The notes under the pieces are model-generated. The model was not told the origin of the DNA. It searched no databases and saw nothing but the letters and a program-made list of their open reading frames with translations. From Pseudomonadota bacterium (GTDB taxonomy: Bacteria > Pseudomonadota > Gammaproteobacteria > Burkholderiales > Burkholderiaceae_C), in contig JAKBNS010000005.1 of NCBI GenBank assembly GCA_021830925.1, forward strand, positions 1-45,803: a DNA stretch of 45,803 nt. The letters are read 5' to 3'. This document shows positions 1,233 to 8,994 of the stretch, one piece after another. Made by a program: the position numbers and the translations under genes. Position 1 is the stretch's first letter, and the number at the start of each line of letters is the position of its first letter.

Positions 1233-1931
1233 CTACACCACCAGGTGCCGCTCGACGTCGGCGCGCGACAGCTCGGCGGTGGCGCCGCGCAGCACGACCT
1301 CGCCGTGATCCAGCACCAGCAGGGTGTCGGCGATGGACATCACCCACTCCAGGTGTTGCTCGACGATGACGAACGCGGCCCCCCGCGCGCAGCGCTCGCG
1401 CACCAGACGCCCCATGCGCTCGACGTTCTCCGGCTGCACCCCCTCGGTAGGCTCGTCCAGCAAGGTCAGCGGCGCTTCCAGCGCCAGCGCGCGCGCGAAG
1501 GAAAGCAGCTTGCGCTCGCCCCCGCTGAGCGTGCCCGCGCGTTGCGACTGGCGCTGCGCGAGCAGCGGGAAAGCCTGCTGCAGCCCGGCGTAGCGCGCTG
1601 GATTGCGGCTCTCCAGATGCAGGTACAGGTTGTCGGCCACGCTGAGTTCGCCGAACACGATGTCGTCCTGCGGCGTGTAGCTGATGCCGCGCCCGCGGCG
1701 CCGCTGCAGCGCCACGCGCGTCACGTCGGCGCCGTCCCAGAGCACGCGACCGGCGCTGGGCACGAGGACTCCGCCCAGCATCTTGAGCAGGGTGCTCTTG
1801 CCCACGCCGTTGCGCCCGAGCACGCCCAGCACCTGGCCCGGCGCGAGCGTGCCGGACACGCCCCGCACCACCGTGGTGTCGGCGTAGCCGCCATGCAGCC
1901 CGTCGAACGCCAGGCCGTCCGCGCCGCTCAT
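1233..1931 (-). CDS. livF: Branched-chain/urea-type ABC transporter ATPase LivF
   Basis: The 232-residue protein is one of the two ATPases of a Liv/Urt-type importer. Walker A is GRNGVGKST near residue 39, the ABC signature is LSGGERK near 136, and Walker B is LTLLDEPTEG. The switch histidine follows in VIVEQHLEW, and the length matches LivF/UrtE. Its ATG overlaps the stop of the livMG fusion by 4 nt (ATGA), so translation is probably coupled. With LivH and LivMG it would energise uptake of the ligand bound by the periplasmic protein encoded at 4498-5649. The family assignment is secure; the substrate is inferred from the binding protein and the nearby amidase. Confidence 0.93.
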   Translation of the reverse strand: MSGADGLAFDGLHGGYADTTVVRGVSGTLAPGQVLGVLGRNGVGKSTLLKMLGGVLVPSAGRVLWDGADVTRVALQRRRGRGISYTPQDDIVFGELSVADNLYLHLESRNPARYAGLQQAFPLLAQRQSQRAGTLSGGERKLLSFARALALEAPLTLLDEPTEGVQPENVERMGRLVRERCARGAAFVIVEQHLEWVMSIADTLLVLDHGEVVLRGATAELSRADVERHLVV

Positions 1932-3658
1932 TTGCGCCCTCCCGCGTAGACGGCGCGCACGGCCGGGTCGGCCTGCACCTGCGCCAGCTCGCCACGCGCC
2001 AGCAGCGCCCCCTGGTGCAGCACGAAGACCTCGCCGCCCATGGCCGCCACCGCGGCGATGTCGTGCTCGATGAGCAGCGCCGCGGCTCCGATGCGCGCCA
2101 CCACCGCGCGAATCGCCTGCGCCATGTGCGCGGTCTCGGCCGGCGACAGTCCGGCGCAGGGCTCGTCGAGCAGCACCAGGCGAGGCTCGGGGAGGACGGT
2201 CATCGCGAACTCCAGGGCCTGGCGCTGGCCCTGCGAGAGCTCGCCGGCGCGCGCCTGCGCCTGCGACGCCAGCACCGGGAAGCGCTGTTGCAGGTCCTCC
2301 AGCAGCGGGCTGCGCCAGCGCAGGGGCCGGCGGCTCAACCAGCCCGCCCCGTGCAGACGCCCGGCCCACAGGGCCAGGCGCAGGTTGTCGGCCACGCCGA
2401 GCTGCGCGAACACCGTCGGGACCTGGAACTTGCGCCCGACCCCGCGACGCGCCACGCGCCACGGCTCCAGGCCGGCGAGGTCGCGGCCGTCCAGCACGAT
2501 GGCCCCGCCACGCAAGGGCAACTGGCCGACGATGGCGTGAAAGGTCGAGGTCTTGCCGGCCCCGTTGGGCCCGATGACACTGCGGATCCCCGGCCCGTCC
2601 AGCGACAGGCTGAGTCCGTCCAGAATGCGCACGCCCCCCTGCGCGGCGCGCAGATCGCGCAATTCGAGGCGCAAGGGCCGGGTGGGCGCGGGTACTCCGG
2701 GCGCGTCCAGATCGTCCGGCGCGCGCGGCCGGCCGGCGCGGCGGGGCAGCAGGCCGGCCAGTCCCTGGGGCAGGAACAGCACCACCGCGATGAACACGGC
2801 CCCCAGCACGACCTCCCACTGGCTGAAATGCTGGCGCAGCAGCATCGACGCGTAGCCGATGCCCACGGCACCCAGCAAGGAGCCCAGGGGACTCGCCTTG
2901 CCGCCCACCGCGGCCCAGATGACCAGGTCGGTGGACAGCCCGAAGCCGATCGACTGGGGGGTCACCAGGCCCTGCTGCCACGCGAACAGGCAACCCGCCA
3001 GCGCGGCCAGCAGCGCCGACAGCGCGAAGGCCCAGGCCTTGATGCGGTCGGTCGCGTAGCCGTACAGCTGCATGCGCGCCTCGTGCTGTTCGATGCCGCT
3101 CCAGAGCACCCCCAGCGGCCTGCGCAGCAAGGTACCGAGCAGCCAGGTCGAGGCCACCGCCACGACGACGATCACGCCGTACAGGTCGCCGTAGCGATCG
3201 AAACCCGGCAAGCCGGGGATGCCCAGCATGCCGTTGTAGCCCCCGGTGACCGAAGTCCACTGCTGGGCCACCAGATAGCCGAGCATGCACAGGGCCAGCG
3301 TGACCAGCGCGAAGTACGGACCGCTGCGCGCGACCCTGGCGAACAACGCACGCGCGACCAGGTAGGCCAGCGCGGCCGGCAGCAGCAGCGCCAGCGGCAG
3401 CGCCGCGTACCAGGCAGGGTGCGCGACCGCGGCCTTCATCACCCCGCCGCACAGGTAGGCGCCCATGCCGAAGAACAGCGCATTGCCCAGGGACAGGAAT
3501 CCCAGGCGCCCCCAGCACAGCGCCACCCCCTGCGTGGCGATGCCGTAGATCACATACAGGCCGAGCTCGTAGGAGGAAAAGCCGCCGGCGATCCAGCCGA
3601 AGGCCGCGAGCGCCAGGGCGAGTACGGCAGCGGGCCTAGCGTCGCGCAAAGAGTCCAT
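1928..3658 (-). CDS. Fused LivM permease-LivG ATPase of the amide/urea-type ABC transporter
   Basis: This single 576-residue reading frame joins two usually separate subunits. Residues 1 to about 310 are a LivM/UrtC-type permease with around eight to ten hydrophobic segments, including LGNALFFGMGAYLCGG and VGGKASPLGSLLGAVGIG. A charged linker rich in Arg and Pro follows near 315-335. Residues 335-576 form a LivG-type ATPase with Walker A GPNGAGKTS, signature LSQGQRQ and Walker B LVLLDEPCAGL. ATG at 3658 was chosen because the hydrophobic domain begins there; it overlaps the 3' end of livH by 23 nt. Fused LivM-LivG proteins occur elsewhere in Proteobacteria, so the fusion is likely functional. 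Confidence 0.93.
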   Translation of the reverse strand: MDSLRDARPAAVLALALAAFGWIAGGFSSYELGLYVIYGIATQGVALCWGRLGFLSLGNALFFGMGAYLCGGVMKAAVAHPAWYAALPLALLLPAALAYLVARALFARVARSGPYFALVTLALCMLGYLVAQQWTSVTGGYNGMLGIPGLPGFDRYGDLYGVIVVVAVASTWLLGTLLRRPLGVLWSGIEQHEARMQLYGYATDRIKAWAFALSALLAALAGCLFAWQQGLVTPQSIGFGLSTDLVIWAAVGGKASPLGSLLGAVGIGYASMLLRQHFSQWEVVLGAVFIAVVLFLPQGLAGLLPRRAGRPRAPDDLDAPGVPAPTRPLRLELRDLRAAQGGVRILDGLSLSLDGPGIRSVIGPNGAGKTSTFHAIVGQLPLRGGAIVLDGRDLAGLEPWRVARRGVGRKFQVPTVFAQLGVADNLRLALWAGRLHGAGWLSRRPLRWRSPLLEDLQQRFPVLASQAQARAGELSQGQRQALEFAMTVLPEPRLVLLDEPCAGLSPAETAHMAQAIRAVVARIGAAALLIEHDIAAVAAMGGEVFVLHQGALLARGELAQVQADPAVRAVYAGGRK

Positions 3659-4496
3659 CGGGTTTGAGCCAGAGAAAGAGGACCGAGACGACCAGCACCG
3701 CGGCGTAGCCCACGGTGCTGCTGAACATGCCGCTGAGCACCGACTGCGCGGAGCCGACCACCGTGACCCCGCCGGCGAAGGCCCCGAAGCTCCCAAGGCC
3801 TCCCACCACCAGGGCGAAAAAGGCGTTCAGCAGGAAGTTCACGCCCATGCCGGGCTCCACCGGCACCAGCGGCGCAAGCAGCACGCCGGCCAGACCGGCC
3901 AGCACCACGCCGACCACGAAGCTGAGACAGGCCAGGCGCTGGGTGTCGATGCCCAGGGCGCGCGCGAGCAGCGGATTCGACACCATGGCGCGCACGCGCA
4001 GGCCCGCCGTGCTGCGCCGGTACCACAGGTACAGCACGAGCAGCAGGCTCAGCACCACTGCCATGAGCACCACGCGGTAGGCGGGGTAGTCGACGCCCAG
4101 CAGGCGCAGCGGCCCGCCAAGGGGGGCGCGCACGTTGTAGTAACCGCGCCCGAATACGGCTTCCACCAGCTTGCGCAGCAGCAGGGCCAGGCCCCAGGTG
4201 GCGAGCAGGGTGTCGAAGGGCCGCGCGTACAACGGGCGCACCAGCCAGCGTTCGACCACGTAGCCGATCGCCGCGCAGGCCACGACGCTCAGCGCGAGCG
4301 CCGCGGGCAGCGGCCAGCCCGCGCGCTGCGCGCTCACCGCCGCGTAGGCGCCGAGCATGACGAACTCGCCGTGGGCCATGTTCATCACACCCAGCAGCCC
4401 GAACACGATCGCCAGGCCCAGCGAGACCAGCGCCAGGCTGGTCAGCGCATAGGCGAGGTCGAGGGCGTGCAGCAGCAGCGCCTGGCCGACGGACAT
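3636..4496 (-). CDS. livH: Branched-chain/urea-type ABC transporter permease LivH
   Basis: The 286-residue inner-membrane protein has about eight hydrophobic segments. Near residue 38 it carries GLLGVMNMAHGEFVMLGAY, the hallmark of LivH/UrtB permeases. A second conserved block near residue 230 reads LVVGGLGSFGAFAGG. ATG at 4496 lies 1 nt after the stop of the binding-protein gene, consistent with translational coupling. It forms the channel together with the LivM half of the fused downstream gene. Confidence 0.94.
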   Translation of the reverse strand: MSVGQALLLHALDLAYALTSLALVSLGLAIVFGLLGVMNMAHGEFVMLGAYAAVSAQRAGWPLPAALALSVVACAAIGYVVERWLVRPLYARPFDTLLATWGLALLLRKLVEAVFGRGYYNVRAPLGGPLRLLGVDYPAYRVVLMAVVLSLLLVLYLWYRRSTAGLRVRAMVSNPLLARALGIDTQRLACLSFVVGVVLAGLAGVLLAPLVPVEPGMGVNFLLNAFFALVVGGLGSFGAFAGGVTVVGSAQSVLSGMFSSTVGYAAVLVVSVLFLWLKPDGLFARR

Positions 4497-4497
4497 G

Positions 4498-5649
4498 TCA
4501 GGCCTTGCAGGTCTGGCCGGAGGCCACCGAATCGAAGGTCTTGACCACCCGGAATCCGGCGTGGCCGACGTCGGCCACGTAGACGTTCTGCTGCAGGTGA
4601 CGCGCATGCATGGTCACCGGCCCGCGCGGCCCGACGTAGTGGGCGCCCTCGCTGGCGGGATCCATGCGCGCCACCTGCAGCGAGCCCGCCCGCGCGGCCA
4701 CGGCCGCCAGCAGCAAGAAGCCCTCGTACACCGATTCGGCGAGTCCGTTGAGCAGGGGCGCGTGGGCGCCGAAGCGCTTGGCGTAGGCCGCCGCGAAGGC
4801 GCGCGCGCTCGGCGTGTCGAGATTGGCGAAATAGCCCGCGCTCGAATACAGGTTGCGCGCGTCGGCCTGACCGATCCCGGCCAGGGTGTTCTCCTCGATG
4901 AGGGTACCCAGGCGCAGCGCCCGATCGCTCAGTCCGAAGCTGGCGAAGGCCTTGTTGAAACCCACCGAGGCCCCGCCCACGAGCGTGACCAACACCGCAT
5001 CGGCACCGCTGCCGCGGATGCGCGCGAGGTTCGCATCGAAGTTGTCCACGCCGAAGGGAACGTACTCCTCGCCGACCACCCGCGCGCCCGCCTGCTGGAT
5101 GTAGCCGCGCGCCACGGCGTTGGTCTTTCTCGGCCAGACGTAGTCGTTGCCGATCAGGTACCACGACCCGGCCTTGCGCGTGGCCTTCAGCCAGGGAATC
5201 ACGGGCCGCAGCTGCTGCTCGGGCGTCTCGCCGGTCATGTAGGTGCCCGGGGCGCATTCGCCGCCTTCGTACACGGGGGTGTAGACGTACGGGACATGGG
5301 CGTCGAACAGTTGCACGAGGGCGTCGCGCACCGCGCTGTCGTGCATGCCGATGACGGCCTCGGCGCCCTCCCCACGCCACAGGCGCAGCGCCGTCTGCGC
5401 CGCCTCGGCCGGCGCCACGCCGGCGTCTCCGAACATCAGCTCCACGCGGCGGCCGAGCACGCCGCCGGCGGCGTTCAGCGCGTCCGCGGCCATCAGCGCG
5501 CAGTTCTTGCTGGATGGGCCGAACAGGGCCGCCGGACCGCTCATCGGGATCATCACCGCCACCTTCAGCGGCGCGGCCGCGCGCGCGGCGGGGCCGGTCG
5601 CGGCCCCGGCCACGGCGGCGGCGGACAACAGGAACTCTCGGCGTCGCAT
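4498..5649 (-). CDS. Periplasmic amide/urea-type substrate-binding protein (Tat-exported)
   Basis: This 383-residue protein belongs to the type I periplasmic binding proteins of the UrtA/AmiC/FmdD branch. The N-terminus reads RRREFLLSAAAVAGAA, a twin-arginine signal, with cleavage probably after ARAAA near residue 27. The mature part begins with VAVMIPMSGPAALFGPSSKN and contains VYTPVYEGGECAPGTYMTG and YLIGNDYVWPRKTN, typical of short-chain amide and urea binders. AGGAG about 7 nt before ATG 5649 fixes the start; longer readings upstream lack a signal sequence. It is the first gene of the transporter operon and has a LuxR-box-like promoter about 110 nt upstream. An amide or urea-like ligand is inferred from the family and from the co-regulated amidase. 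Confidence 0.9.
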   Translation of the reverse strand: MRRREFLLSAAAVAGAATGPAARAAAPLKVAVMIPMSGPAALFGPSSKNCALMAADALNAAGGVLGRRVELMFGDAGVAPAEAAQTALRLWRGEGAEAVIGMHDSAVRDALVQLFDAHVPYVYTPVYEGGECAPGTYMTGETPEQQLRPVIPWLKATRKAGSWYLIGNDYVWPRKTNAVARGYIQQAGARVVGEEYVPFGVDNFDANLARIRGSGADAVLVTLVGGASVGFNKAFASFGLSDRALRLGTLIEENTLAGIGQADARNLYSSAGYFANLDTPSARAFAAAYAKRFGAHAPLLNGLAESVYEGFLLLAAVAARAGSLQVARMDPASEGAHYVGPRGPVTMHARHLQQNVYVADVGHAGFRVVKTFDSVASGQTCKA

Positions 5650-5728: not shown

Positions 5729-5774
5729 AGTCTAGGAAGGCGCTCGCGGCGCGGCACCTAGCAGGATCGCTAGG
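5729..5774 (-). promoter_or_regulatory. Predicted LuxR-type promoter of the amide transporter operon
   Basis: On the minus strand an 18-bp dyad, CCTAGCGATCCTGCTAGG, occupies 5774-5757. Exactly 20 nt later comes CCTAGACT (5736-5729), in which TAGACT can serve as -10. This places the dyad centre near -43, the class II position used by many LuxR-family activators. The same elements at the same spacing precede the amidase at 6752-6797. Position and symmetry are seen in the sequence; binding by the neighbouring LuxR protein is inferred. Confidence 0.65.
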
Positions 5775-5864
5775 GACACCAGGAGTCCGGGCGGCACAGG
5801 AAGGCGTCGCGAAATTCGCCAGGGGCGAGCACAGCCCAGGCGCGTTCCCGGCACGCGGGCGCGC

Positions 5865-6662
5865 TCAGTTCGCGCGCGAGACGGCGTCGCCGTCGGCCTG
5901 GATCAGCGCGCGCACCCTGGCCGCCAGCATGGCTCGGTTGTGCGCGTGGAGTTTGCGGTACACGTTGCCGAGATGAAACCGCACCGTCGGGTAGCTGATG
6001 CCCAGGCGGCGCGCGATTTCCTTGTCCGGACAGCCGCAGGCGACCAGCCAGGCCGCCTGCGCCTCGCGCCGGCTCAGGTGTGCGCGGCGCTCCAGCAGTT
6101 CCTCCGCGCACAGCGTCTGGGCCTCCTGAGGCGCGGCGGAGCCGGCCCAGTGCAATCGGCTCAGTGCCGAGGTGATCCCCGGCTCCAGCAGGCGCAGCAC
6201 CTCGAGCTCGTGGCTGCCGAACTGCCCGCGCTCGCGGCTGCGCCAGATGCGAAAGTCGCCGACGCAGGTGCGCGCGTCGTGGAAGTAGATGTTGACCCCC
6301 CAGTGCATGCCCTCGCGGCGCAGGAAGTCGTTGAAGAACTCGCTTTTCATCAGCTCCGGCTGGCTCATGATCTGCGTGGCCAGCGTGGGGCCGCGGCGCA
6401 GCATCAGGCGGAAGGTCAGCGGGTCGACGAAACGGAAATAGGCGTCCCAGTCGCGCAGGCTGTCGGGCGACACGTTGAGCGCGGTGAAGCGCTCGAAACG
6501 ATGTGTCTGCTCGTTCCACGCCATGGACGTGTAATGGTCCGCGCCCAGCAGGTCGAGCATGGGCGCGGCCAGCGCGGCGCGCAGCGCGTCCGCGTCGTTG
6601 GCATCGGCGAGCAGGCCGATCGCCGAGGCAAGTGCACGGGACTGGTTGGATGACAGATGCAT
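5865..6662 (-). CDS. LuxR-family transcriptional regulator
   Basis: The 265-residue protein ends in a LuxR/GerE helix-turn-helix at about residues 195-255: LSRREAQAAWLVACG, then DKEIARRLGISYPTVRFHLG and VYRKL. The N-terminal 180 residues form a sensor-like domain containing DAYFRFVDPLTFRLM and GMHWGVNIYFHD. I do not recognise this domain as a classical acyl-homoserine-lactone pocket, so an amide or a related effector is equally possible. ATG at 6662 has GGAG 8 nt upstream. The gene lies between the transporter operon and the divergent amidase, and matching dyads precede both. I infer that it controls them. A TAACAT at 6702-6707 (minus strand) may be its own -10. Confidence 0.9.
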   Translation of the reverse strand: MHLSSNQSRALASAIGLLADANDADALRAALAAPMLDLLGADHYTSMAWNEQTHRFERFTALNVSPDSLRDWDAYFRFVDPLTFRLMLRRGPTLATQIMSQPELMKSEFFNDFLRREGMHWGVNIYFHDARTCVGDFRIWRSRERGQFGSHELEVLRLLEPGITSALSRLHWAGSAAPQEAQTLCAEELLERRAHLSRREAQAAWLVACGCPDKEIARRLGISYPTVRFHLGNVYRKLHAHNRAMLAARVRALIQADGDAVSRAN

Positions 6663-6751
6663 GGCTGGCGCTCCGCGCGGCGCGCATCGACTGCGGCCAC
6701 CGATGTTAGGAGAAGGGCGCCGCGGCGTCTCGTCGGGGCAAACCCCCACCC

Positions 6752-6797
6752 CCTATCGGTCCCGCTAGGTGCGCGCGCCGGGCGCCGTGCCTACGCT
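6752..6797 (+). promoter_or_regulatory. Predicted LuxR-type promoter of the amidase gene
   Basis: The dyad CCTATCGGTCCCGCTAGG (6752-6769) matches the transporter-operon dyad at 15 of 18 positions, and the following TGC is also shared. After exactly 20 nt comes CCTACGCT (6790-6797), giving TACGCT as a weak -10. A poor -10 with a dyad over the -35 region fits an activator-dependent promoter. It is 26 nt upstream of the amidase start. Confidence 0.65.
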
Positions 6798-6822: not shown

Positions 6823-8235
6823 ATGAAACCGACCGACCTCACCGCCAGCCAGCTCGCGACGGCGCTCGCGCGGCGCGAGCTTTCCTGCGTCGAGCTTGCC
6901 GGAGCCTGGATTCGCCGCACCGAGGCGGCGGCCGCCCTGAACTGCTACGTCGAGTTCGACGCCGAGGGCTGGCTCGCCCAGGCTCGCCGGGCCGATGCAC
7001 GGCTCGCCGCCGGCGAGCGCCTGCCCCTGCTCGGCGTGCCCATCGCCCTGAAGGACAACATCGGCGCCGCGGGGCTGGGCTGCGCCAACGGCACTTCGGC
7101 GCTGCAAGGCTGGCGCTGCGAGCGCGACGCCCGGCTGGTCGCCCGGCTGCGCGCCGCCGGGGCCGTCGTCACGGGCAAGCTTGGCATGCACGAACTGGCC
7201 TTCGGAATCACCTCGAACAACGCCTGCACCGGCGCGGTGCACAATCCCTGGGACACGGCGCGCTCGCCCGGCGGCAGCAGCGGCGGCGCCGGCGCGGCGG
7301 TCGCCGCGCGCCTGGTACCGGCCGCCATCGGTACCGACACCGGCGGCTCGGTGCGCGTGCCGGCGGCATTTTGCGGGGTGCAGGGCCTGCGCCCCAGCGT
7401 GGGTCGCGTGAGCGCCGACGGCATCGCGCCCATCTCGGCCACGCGCGACACCGCGGGCCCGCTGGCGCGCAGCGTGGAGGACCTGGCGCTGCTCGATTCC
7501 GTGCTCGGCGACGAGCGCGAGCCGCTGGCGCGCATCTCCCTGCGCGGCCTGCGCCTGGGCATCCCGGACGGATTGTTCTGGCAGGATCTGGCTCCCGGCG
7601 TGCGGGCCTGCGCCGACCGGGCGCTGGACGCCCTGCGCGCGCAGGGTGCCGAGTGCGTGCCGGTCTCGCTGCACGGGCTGGAGCAGCTCAACGCCCAGAT
7701 CAGCTTCGTCGTGGCGCTGTACGAATTCGTGCGTGACATGACACGCTACCTGCACGACGAAGGCCGCGGCATCGATCTGGCCGCGCTGGTGGCCGGCGTG
7801 CGCAGCGCCGACGTGAAGGCCATCGTGGAGCCGCTGCTCGGCGCCGGCGCGGTGCCCGAGTCCGCCTATCGGGACGCGCTGGCGGCGCGGCAGCGCCTGC
7901 AGGACGTCTACCGAGAGGCCTTCGCCGCCGCCGGAGTGGACGCGCTGGTGTTCCCCACCACGCCGTGCACGGCGCCCCGCATCGGCGAGGACCAGAGCTT
8001 CGCGCACAACGGCAGGGACTGCCCGACCTTCCCGACCGTGATCCGCAACACCGATCCCGGCAGCAACGCCGGCCTGCCCGGCATCTCTCTCGCCATGGGC
8101 CTGGCCGACGGCCTGCCGGTGGGCCTGGAGCTGGACGGCCCGGTCGGCGGCGACCGCAGGCTGCTGGCCGTGGCGGCGGCGGTGGAAGCCGCGTTGCCGG
8201 CGATGCCCGCGCCCCCGACGGTGCCCGCCGCGTAG
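6823..8235 (+). CDS. Amidase (amidase-signature family)
   Basis: The 470-residue cytoplasmic enzyme has the complete Ser-cisSer-Lys triad of the amidase-signature family. K77 is in GVPIALKDN, S152 is in SPGGSSGGAG, and nucleophile S176 is in GTDTGGSVRVP. Such enzymes hydrolyse carboxamides to acid and ammonia. AGGGAG at 6811-6816 is well placed for ATG 6823, so the earlier in-frame ATGs at 6769 and 6817 are less likely. The gene is divergent from the LuxR regulator and shares its promoter layout with the amide transporter operon, so it probably cleaves the imported compound. Related enzymes include indoleacetamide and mandelamide hydrolases, but the substrate cannot be read from sequence alone. 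Confidence 0.92.
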   Translation: MKPTDLTASQLATALARRELSCVELAGAWIRRTEAAAALNCYVEFDAEGWLAQARRADARLAAGERLPLLGVPIALKDNIGAAGLGCANGTSALQGWRCERDARLVARLRAAGAVVTGKLGMHELAFGITSNNACTGAVHNPWDTARSPGGSSGGAGAAVAARLVPAAIGTDTGGSVRVPAAFCGVQGLRPSVGRVSADGIAPISATRDTAGPLARSVEDLALLDSVLGDEREPLARISLRGLRLGIPDGLFWQDLAPGVRACADRALDALRAQGAECVPVSLHGLEQLNAQISFVVALYEFVRDMTRYLHDEGRGIDLAALVAGVRSADVKAIVEPLLGAGAVPESAYRDALAARQRLQDVYREAFAAAGVDALVFPTTPCTAPRIGEDQSFAHNGRDCPTFPTVIRNTDPGSNAGLPGISLAMGLADGLPVGLELDGPVGGDRRLLAVAAAVEAALPAMPAPPTVPAA

Positions 8236-8325
8236 GCGCGGCAAGCGGGCCGCCGACGAGCCTGCCGACAGACTGGTAACCTTGGCGACCCGGCTTTCCC
8301 GGCGGATTCTCCCCCGCGTTGCACC

Positions 8326-8994
8326 ATGGAACTCCATTCCGACTTTTCCGCGCGCGTGCTGATCGACACGCGCGACGCGCCCTGGGTGGCGTCGCCCCAA
8401 CCCGGCGTCGAGCGACGCATGCTCGACCGCGTCGGAGACGAGGTGGCGCGCGCCACCAGCATCGTGCGCTATGCGCCCGACAGCGTGTTCGCCGAACACG
8501 AGCACGCGCTGGGCGAGGAGATCCTCGTGCTGTCCGGCGTGTTCGCCGACGAGCACGGCGAGTACCCGGCGGGCACCTACCTGCGCAACCCGCCCGGCAC
8601 GCGCCACGCGCCGCGCTCCAGCGCGGGCTGCGAGCTGTTCGTCAAGCTGCGCCAGTTCCAACCCGGGGACGACCGCCAGCTATGCGTCGACACGCGCGCG
8701 GCGGCCTTCCTGCCGGGGCTCGTCCCCGGCCTGCAGGTGCTGCCGCTGCACGAATTCGGCGGCGAGCATGTCGCGTTGGTGCGCTGGGCGCCCGGCACGC
8801 GCTTCCAGGCCCACACGCACTGGGGCGGCGAGGAGATCCTGGTGCTCGAGGGCGTGTTCAGCGACGAACACGGGCATTACCCGGCGGGCAGCTGGCTGCG
8901 CAGCCCGCACCTCAGCCGGCATCAGCCCTTCAGCGACCCGGGCTGCCTGATCTACGTGAAGGTGGGGCACCTGCAGCAAGATTCCGCGCGCTGA
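8326..8994 (+). CDS. Double-cupin (ChrR-like) protein
   Basis: This 222-residue protein consists of two consecutive ChrR-type cupin domains, about 30-115 and 135-215. The halves are clearly an internal duplication: EEILVLSGVFADEHGEYPAG in the first corresponds to EEILVLEGVFSDEHGHYPAG in the second. Each half carries the cupin metal-ligand pattern, with AEHEH or QAHTH, then EE and a later histidine (PGTRH, LSRH). ChrR is the anti-sigma factor of singlet-oxygen responses, but this protein lacks the N-terminal anti-sigma zinc domain and has no sigma gene beside it. A cytoplasmic metal-binding or enzymatic role is therefore more likely. Its last 65 nt overlap the convergent MocR gene. Confidence 0.85.
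   Translation: MELHSDFSARVLIDTRDAPWVASPQPGVERRMLDRVGDEVARATSIVRYAPDSVFAEHEHALGEEILVLSGVFADEHGEYPAGTYLRNPPGTRHAPRSSAGCELFVKLRQFQPGDDRQLCVDTRAAAFLPGLVPGLQVLPLHEFGGEHVALVRWAPGTRFQAHTHWGGEEILVLEGVFSDEHGHYPAGSWLRSPHLSRHQPFSDPGCLIYVKVGHLQQDSAR

Follow-up and report, generated by a model that had tools for sequence, protein, structure and literature searches.

A candidate operator shared by an importer operon and an indoleacetamide hydrolase-type amidase gene, linked to a LuxR-type regulator with a predicted GAF-like domain

Genes at the locus

The window (the whole stretch of DNA analyzed, 45,803 nt) contains a LuxR-type regulator gene on the minus strand at positions 5865–6662. It encodes a predicted 265 amino acid protein that displays a GerE helix-turn-helix (HTH) DNA-binding domain (PF00196, 53.9 bits against a cut-off of 23.5) and an N-terminal domain that has no Pfam match. 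Divergent from luxR, on the plus strand at positions 6823–8235, is a gene for an amidase-signature enzyme (PF01425) of the indoleacetamide hydrolase (IaaH) family. It passes the NCBIfam cut-off for that enzyme, i.e. 613.6 bits with NF005688 where the cut-off is 532.

The luxR gene lies upstream of, and on the same strand as, an operon for a urea/amide-type ABC importer. The operon encodes a periplasmic substrate-binding protein (positions 4498–5649, PF13458), a UrtB-like permease (3636–4496, PF02653), a UrtC-UrtD-like protein in which a permease and an ATPase are fused in one frame (1928–3658, PF02653 and PF00005) and a UrtE-like ATPase (1233–1931, PF00005), all on the minus strand. Among proteins of solved structure, urea-binding proteins and AmiC are relatives of the binding protein. 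Models of the UrtABCDE urea transporter are the best NCBIfam matches of the importer subunits; however, all of the subunits fall under the curated cut-offs (binding protein 209.3 against 492.75 bits; UrtB, TIGR03409, 224 against 250.3; UrtC 153.9 against 296.2; UrtD 189.2 against 304.1; UrtE, TIGR03410, 187.7 against 285.8), and unlike UrtABCDE the UrtC- and UrtD-like parts are fused. The IaaH and importer labels rest on profile matches, and the naming of the locus in the preliminary description, amide uptake and amidase, fits these families. The regulator gene is located between the amidase gene and the importer operon with matching sites before both, and the three very probably form one unit for sensing, import and digestion.

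A full-length match to the UrtC/UrtD-like fusion protein is also found in L001, L002, L003 and L004 (loci from other genomes are numbered with the prefix L). At positions 3–1176 of the window, after the importer and on the same strand, are genes for a TPP-dependent enzyme and a DUF1348 protein, both of which are kept beside the importer in L001. The closest model to the TPP-dependent enzyme is PRK07586, with a score under the cut-off. Downstream of the amidase gene, at positions 8326–8994, is a gene for a cupin protein with two ChrR-type stretches. Among the loci compared by tblastn, L001 alone has a match to the cupin.

Two matching dyads

The sequence CCTA-N10-TAGG occurs exactly twice in the window. 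One dyad, CCTAGCGATCCTGCTAGG in the direction of transcription, is at positions 5757–5774 on the minus strand before the importer operon, and the other, CCTATCGGTCCCGCTAGG, is at positions 6752–6769 on the plus strand before the amidase gene. Each is a candidate operator. In 100 dinucleotide shuffles of the window the mean number of matches is 0.00 and the largest 0, and when spacers of 0 to 24 are tried, 10 is the sole spacer with CCTA/TAGG half-sites.

The preliminary description had placed the pattern before these two transcription units, and the two exact matches confirm this. Alignment in the direction of transcription also bears out that the boxes and the next three bases are alike at 18 of 21 positions, and that at both promoters a 20-nt gap is followed by another CCTA that overlaps a –10-like hexamer. 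The dyad, the gap and the second CCTA read CCTAGACT before the binding-protein gene, where the hexamer is TAGACT (minus strand, positions 5734–5729), and CCTACGCT before the amidase gene, where it is TACGCT (plus strand, positions 6792–6797). Both hexamers start 22 nt past the dyad. If TAGACT and TACGCT are the –10 elements, with the first T set at –12, the centre of the dyad is predicted to be at –43.5 at both promoters. A class II activator site overlaps the –35 region and is centred near –42.5 from the transcription start, and the predicted assignment of the dyads to this position, near –43, is supported by their conservation across relatives (see below). The lux-box motif is given as CT(N12)AG, a dyad of approximately 20 bp that lies upstream of the regulated gene (PMC4338825). 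A CT(N12)AG dyad is found upstream of the gene at both promoters of the window.

The second CCTA was considered as a third half-site and rejected. Relatives keep only TAnnnT at this place, with CGTA in L005 and L072 and TCTA in L070, L073 and L074, so that of the second CCTA only NNTANNNT is conserved. It is therefore read as a –10 element rather than as a half-site.

Conservation of the box in related loci

Nine loci from named genome contigs were compared. Five encode full-length relatives of the regulator, 58%–98% identical over most of the protein, and four match the HTH only. Further loci from genomes of the family encode regulators of 54%–61% identity, and a Variovorax plasmid encodes one of 56%. 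The 12 box-bearing sequences group as one clade, with a support of 100/100, when 49 regulators are placed in a tree, and this clade contains the closest relatives of the window's regulator. A search of relatives for CCTA-N10-TAGG upstream of orthologous loci, proposed earlier as a check, finds the dyad before the indoleacetamide hydrolase-type amidase gene in 12 of 12 rows of this clade. The half-sites are complete, with eight bases, in ten of them; L070 and L075 match at seven. The importer dyad is kept in L001 with all eight half-site bases and in L002 with seven. The boxes of L070 and L075 and the importer box of L002 were accepted partly for their position.

The promoter alignment consists of 16 promoters, 13 of amidase genes and three of binding-protein genes, which are related by descent and not fully independent. 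In all 16, TAnnnT begins exactly 22 nt past the 18-mer. When L001, L004 and the three binding-protein promoters are removed, 11 of 11 lineages have it at the 22-nt offset, and among offsets of 0 to 44 it occurs nowhere else. The mean information per column is 1.99 bits in the half-sites, 1.08 in the inner ten bases, 0.53 in the 20-nt spacer and 0.26 in the upstream 30 nt. The inner ten bases lean to C-R and Y-G in most relatives (L070, L071 and L072 depart), and the operator is therefore better written CCTA-N-CR-N4-YG-N-TAGG.

The number of boxes goes with the arrangement of the genes. In the window, L001 and L002, which represent one lineage, luxR is between the amidase and importer genes and there are two boxes; this split arrangement is limited to that lineage. 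In L003, L004, L005, L070, L071, L072, L074, L075 and the Variovorax plasmid (L090/L091) the amidase and importer genes form one operon transcribed away from luxR, and the gap between them and luxR holds a single box. L005 comes from Hydrogenophaga borbori LA-38. Thus the separation of the importer from the amidase promoter is accompanied by a second box. Overall the comparison strongly supports the reading of the dyad as a LuxR-type operator, and the conservation across relatives supports a shared regulon of importer and amidase, as proposed from the window sequence.

The regulator could bind the dyads as a repressor that is relieved by an amide instead of as a class II activator. Some LuxR-type proteins do repress (PMC4338825), and a dyad in a divergent gap could also affect luxR itself. 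However, the dyad ends at the place of the –35 region, its distance to the –10 element is constant and the spacer between them is weakly conserved, all of which a class II site predicts, and a repressor site has no need of a fixed spacing. A repressor is therefore considered unlikely, and class II activation is the reading that is followed here.

The regulator and its N-terminal domain

The preliminary description had stated that the LuxR protein has no recognisable AHL-binding domain. This holds at the level of sequence. The regulator has no match to the autoinducer-binding family PF03472 up to an E-value of 0.1, and a profile of its N-terminal domain aligned with 12 AHL receptors gives an hhalign probability of 0.9%. 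At the level of structure, however, the N-terminal domain is predicted to have a GAF-like fold, as in AHL receptors. The best Foldseek matches of the full-length model are RhlR, SdiA, CviR and TraR. Phytochrome GAF domains score as high as CepR2 against the model. The assembly that contains the window has no match to PF03472 at an E-value of 1e-10 and none to the LuxI synthase family PF00765; control genomes likewise gave no PF00765 match.

The N-terminal-domain profile finds a match in 39 of 399 genomes of the family, and in a class-wide draw in two of 369 genomes, the window's own included. The examination covered 38 of the 39, i.e. the window and 37 fetched loci (left out were G162, with a contig that begins at the match, and in G121 a second match that is partial). 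An amidase-signature gene is within approximately 0.7 kb of the regulator gene in 37 of these 38 genomes, with L111 as the exception.

These data bear on whether the protein is a quorum-sensing receptor for a foreign acyl-homoserine lactone, with amide use under the control of cell density. The Foldseek matches would agree with such a function. The missing PF03472 match, the low hhalign probability, the equal scores of phytochrome domains and the nearly constant linkage to an amidase gene all argue against it, and it appears very unlikely.

Distribution of the box and the regulator

Two groups of loci separate the regulator from its target. L073 encodes a regulator of 61% identity and has the box, which is about 190 nt upstream of the apparent start codon of a distant amidase gene. 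This amidase is 40% identical to that of the window, is over the IaaH cut-off and has an export signal; no binding protein was found nearby. In L080, L081 and L110, by comparison, the amidase (57%–59%) and the binding protein (64%–70%) are kept, whereas the regulator is only 38%–42% identical. No exact CTA-N10-TAG is found in these three fetched loci (the L080 contig ends inside a UrtC-like gene). The box thus follows the regulator and not the target.

The 51 fetched loci (784,111 bases) contain CCTA-N10-TAGG 12 times: L093 has one match, and the other 11 are at regulator-linked promoters. With any other spacer between 4 and 19 there are zero to two matches. Within the genus, three of 28 genomes contain the refined dyad, and all three have the regulator. 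In G027, a fourth genome with the regulator, a CCTA/TAGG site differs at one base. The remaining 24 genomes have neither the regulator nor the refined dyad. The restriction of the regulator to four of 28 genus genomes and the presence of a relative on a Variovorax plasmid suggest that the locus may move between strains.

The dyads might be operators of another, unlinked regulator, with the neighboring luxR gene incidental. Binding of LuxR to the dyad is a prediction, and another protein with the same distribution could in principle bind. However, the box tracks LuxR in every row of the clade and is not found where LuxR is absent or diverged, and L073 keeps both LuxR and the box though its target amidase differs. 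An unlinked regulator is highly improbable, and the neighboring LuxR protein remains the candidate for binding to the dyads.

The dyad is also rare in the genome. The assembly (3,568,162 bases, about 90% complete) contains CCTA-N10-TAGG in three places, against 32 for a reversed control pattern. The third, on contig C99, is without the inner CR/YG bases and overlaps an unrelated reading frame at its 3′ end; we take this frame to be RlpA/SPOR-like. The refined form CCTA-N-CR-N4-YG-N-TAGG is found in exactly two places, and at least six places have one mismatch to it among the matches listed. A scan of the genome for more regulon members with two mismatches to the refined dyad gives 225 places; this is regarded as noise since the reversed control gives more (578). 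That the dyads are RNA hairpins (terminators or attenuators) or chance palindromes is extremely unlikely. The dyad at 5757–5774 is about 90 bp past the luxR stop codon, which would suit a hairpin, but both dyads are upstream of the –10 elements, and in one-operon relatives the dyad is between divergent genes. Conservation is of the half-site bases as such, with no replacement by compensating pairs, and shuffled sequences predict no chance palindrome.

Amidase, importer and possible substrate

Partial amidase sequences from nine relatives were compared with the IaaH model. Seven of the nine pass; that of Pantoea is just below the cut-off (522) and that of Thioclava matches another amidase model. 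Amidase N-termini were judged by eye in 47 rows (L087, L109 and L114 were left out). In the importer-bearing rows 18 of 18 amidase starts are without an export signal. Among the 29 rows without an importer in the fetched stretch, about 23 have a Tat- or Sec-like signal, five have none and one is ambiguous. This pattern fits an importer that would carry the amidase's substrate to a cytosolic enzyme.

No match to PaaA (TIGR02156) is found in the window's own assembly, and use of phenylacetamide by the phenylacetyl-CoA route is therefore unsupported. An amide or its acid is a plausible guess for the ligand of the regulator.

Proposed regulation and comparison with known systems

The locus is interpreted as a small catabolic regulon in which a LuxR-type activator would act at two class II promoters, those of the importer and the amidase. 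We give this reading a probability of roughly 0.8. It draws on the two sites, their rarity, the fixed –10 spacing, the conservation of the box and its co-inheritance with the regulator clade, each of which is seen at the level of sequence. A small molecule would be sensed by the GAF-like domain of the activator (5865–6662). The trigger is probably an amide or the product made from it, and the amide might be an aryl-acetamide such as indole-3-acetamide; the choice of ligand is a guess. A dimer of the activator would then occupy the lux-box-like dyad CCTA-N-CR-N4-YG-N-TAGG at about –43.5, next to the –35 region, and would recruit RNA polymerase in the class II manner. The ABC importer and the cytosolic indoleacetamide hydrolase-family amidase would thereby be switched on.

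A two-site observation thus becomes a testable regulon with a defined candidate operator, and a LuxR family that has no assigned sensor domain is linked to amide catabolism. If the ligand is indole-3-acetamide or a similar compound, the protein would serve bacteria as a sensor of an auxin precursor and could be used as it stands in a biosensor.

The regulator resembles the quorum-sensing LuxR/TraR proteins and their lux box in its GerE HTH, in the CT(N12)AG geometry, in the predicted position near –43 and in its Foldseek matches. It differs in having no autoinducer-binding family match and in being at an amide locus. The half-sites also differ, i.e. CCTA/TAGG in the window and CCTG/CAGG in the Vibrio lux box. 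The AmiC/AmiR operon of Pseudomonas aeruginosa likewise links an AmiC-related binding protein to an amidase gene. However AmiC/AmiR works by antitermination, whereas the window encodes a DNA-binding LuxR-type protein and a complete importer.

The PipR-type LuxR solos of plant-associated bacteria (class D) are also comparable. They regulate an adjoining hydrolase gene, often with a transporter gene nearby, and PipR responds to a non-AHL small molecule brought in by an ABC transporter (PMC10134790). The window locus has the same combination of LuxR-type gene, hydrolase and transporter. The PipR-type genes have a proline iminopeptidase neighbor, and their products are counted as LuxR solos with an autoinducer-type domain (PMC10134790). 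In contrast, the window regulator has a predicted GAF-like domain, and its neighbors are an amidase-signature gene and a urea/AmiC-type importer, with no adjacent proline iminopeptidase gene. Among the matches listed in a PMC full-text search, judged by titles and the starts of abstracts and with few subscription journals covered, none reports that an indoleacetamide hydrolase and an importer are under the control of a LuxR-type regulator.

A second dyad in distant members of the family

More distant members of the regulator family display a different dyad. TCNTC-N6-GANGA is found in 20 of 36 upstream regions (L101 and L105 contribute two each and four are from plasmids); in the rest of these loci its rate is 0.026 per region. 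The count is descriptive since the pattern had been derived from these loci beforehand. It is missing from the other 16 regions. Other spacers of TCNTC/GANGA (4, 5, 7, 8 and 9) have zero to two matches.

The residue after Arg228 in the recognition helix, read by eye from the alignment, is Phe or Tyr throughout the CCTA clade (12 of 12 regulators), whereas 20 of 20 TCNTC-dyad loci have Thr. Thr is also present at this position in most distant members in which the TCNTC dyad was not found. A sister clade with Tyr after Arg228 (L080, L081, L101b, L105a and L110) shows neither dyad. Dyad-like sequences in this sister clade are CCCTCATTCTTGAGAG in L080 and CCGTCAATCTCGACGG in L110. The pattern suggests, at the level of aligned sequences, that operator and recognition helix have changed jointly. 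Paired divergence of this kind in sister clades would let the evolution of LuxR-type specificity be studied.

A broader and tentative interpretation, which we hold to be possible but on balance doubtful, is that these proteins are an undescribed family of GAF-like LuxR regulators tied to indoleacetamide hydrolase-type amidases in proteobacteria, which would sense aryl-acetamides derived from plants or microbes. In one clade the operator would have gone from TCNTC-N6-GANGA to CTANC-N6-GNTAG along with a Thr to Phe/Tyr change after Arg228, and the surrounding importer and amidase genes would have been rearranged or exchanged. If this is true, the family would offer a natural series in which to follow the joint change of a regulator and its DNA site.

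On a Rhizobium rhizogenes plasmid (L093, positions 8001–8558) the neighbors of a distant family member are an annotated arginase gene and a peptide ABC transporter; no amidase match is found in this locus. L101 and L105 each have two regulator–amidase pairs of the family side by side, and in L101 one of the amidases has an export signal and the other is without it.
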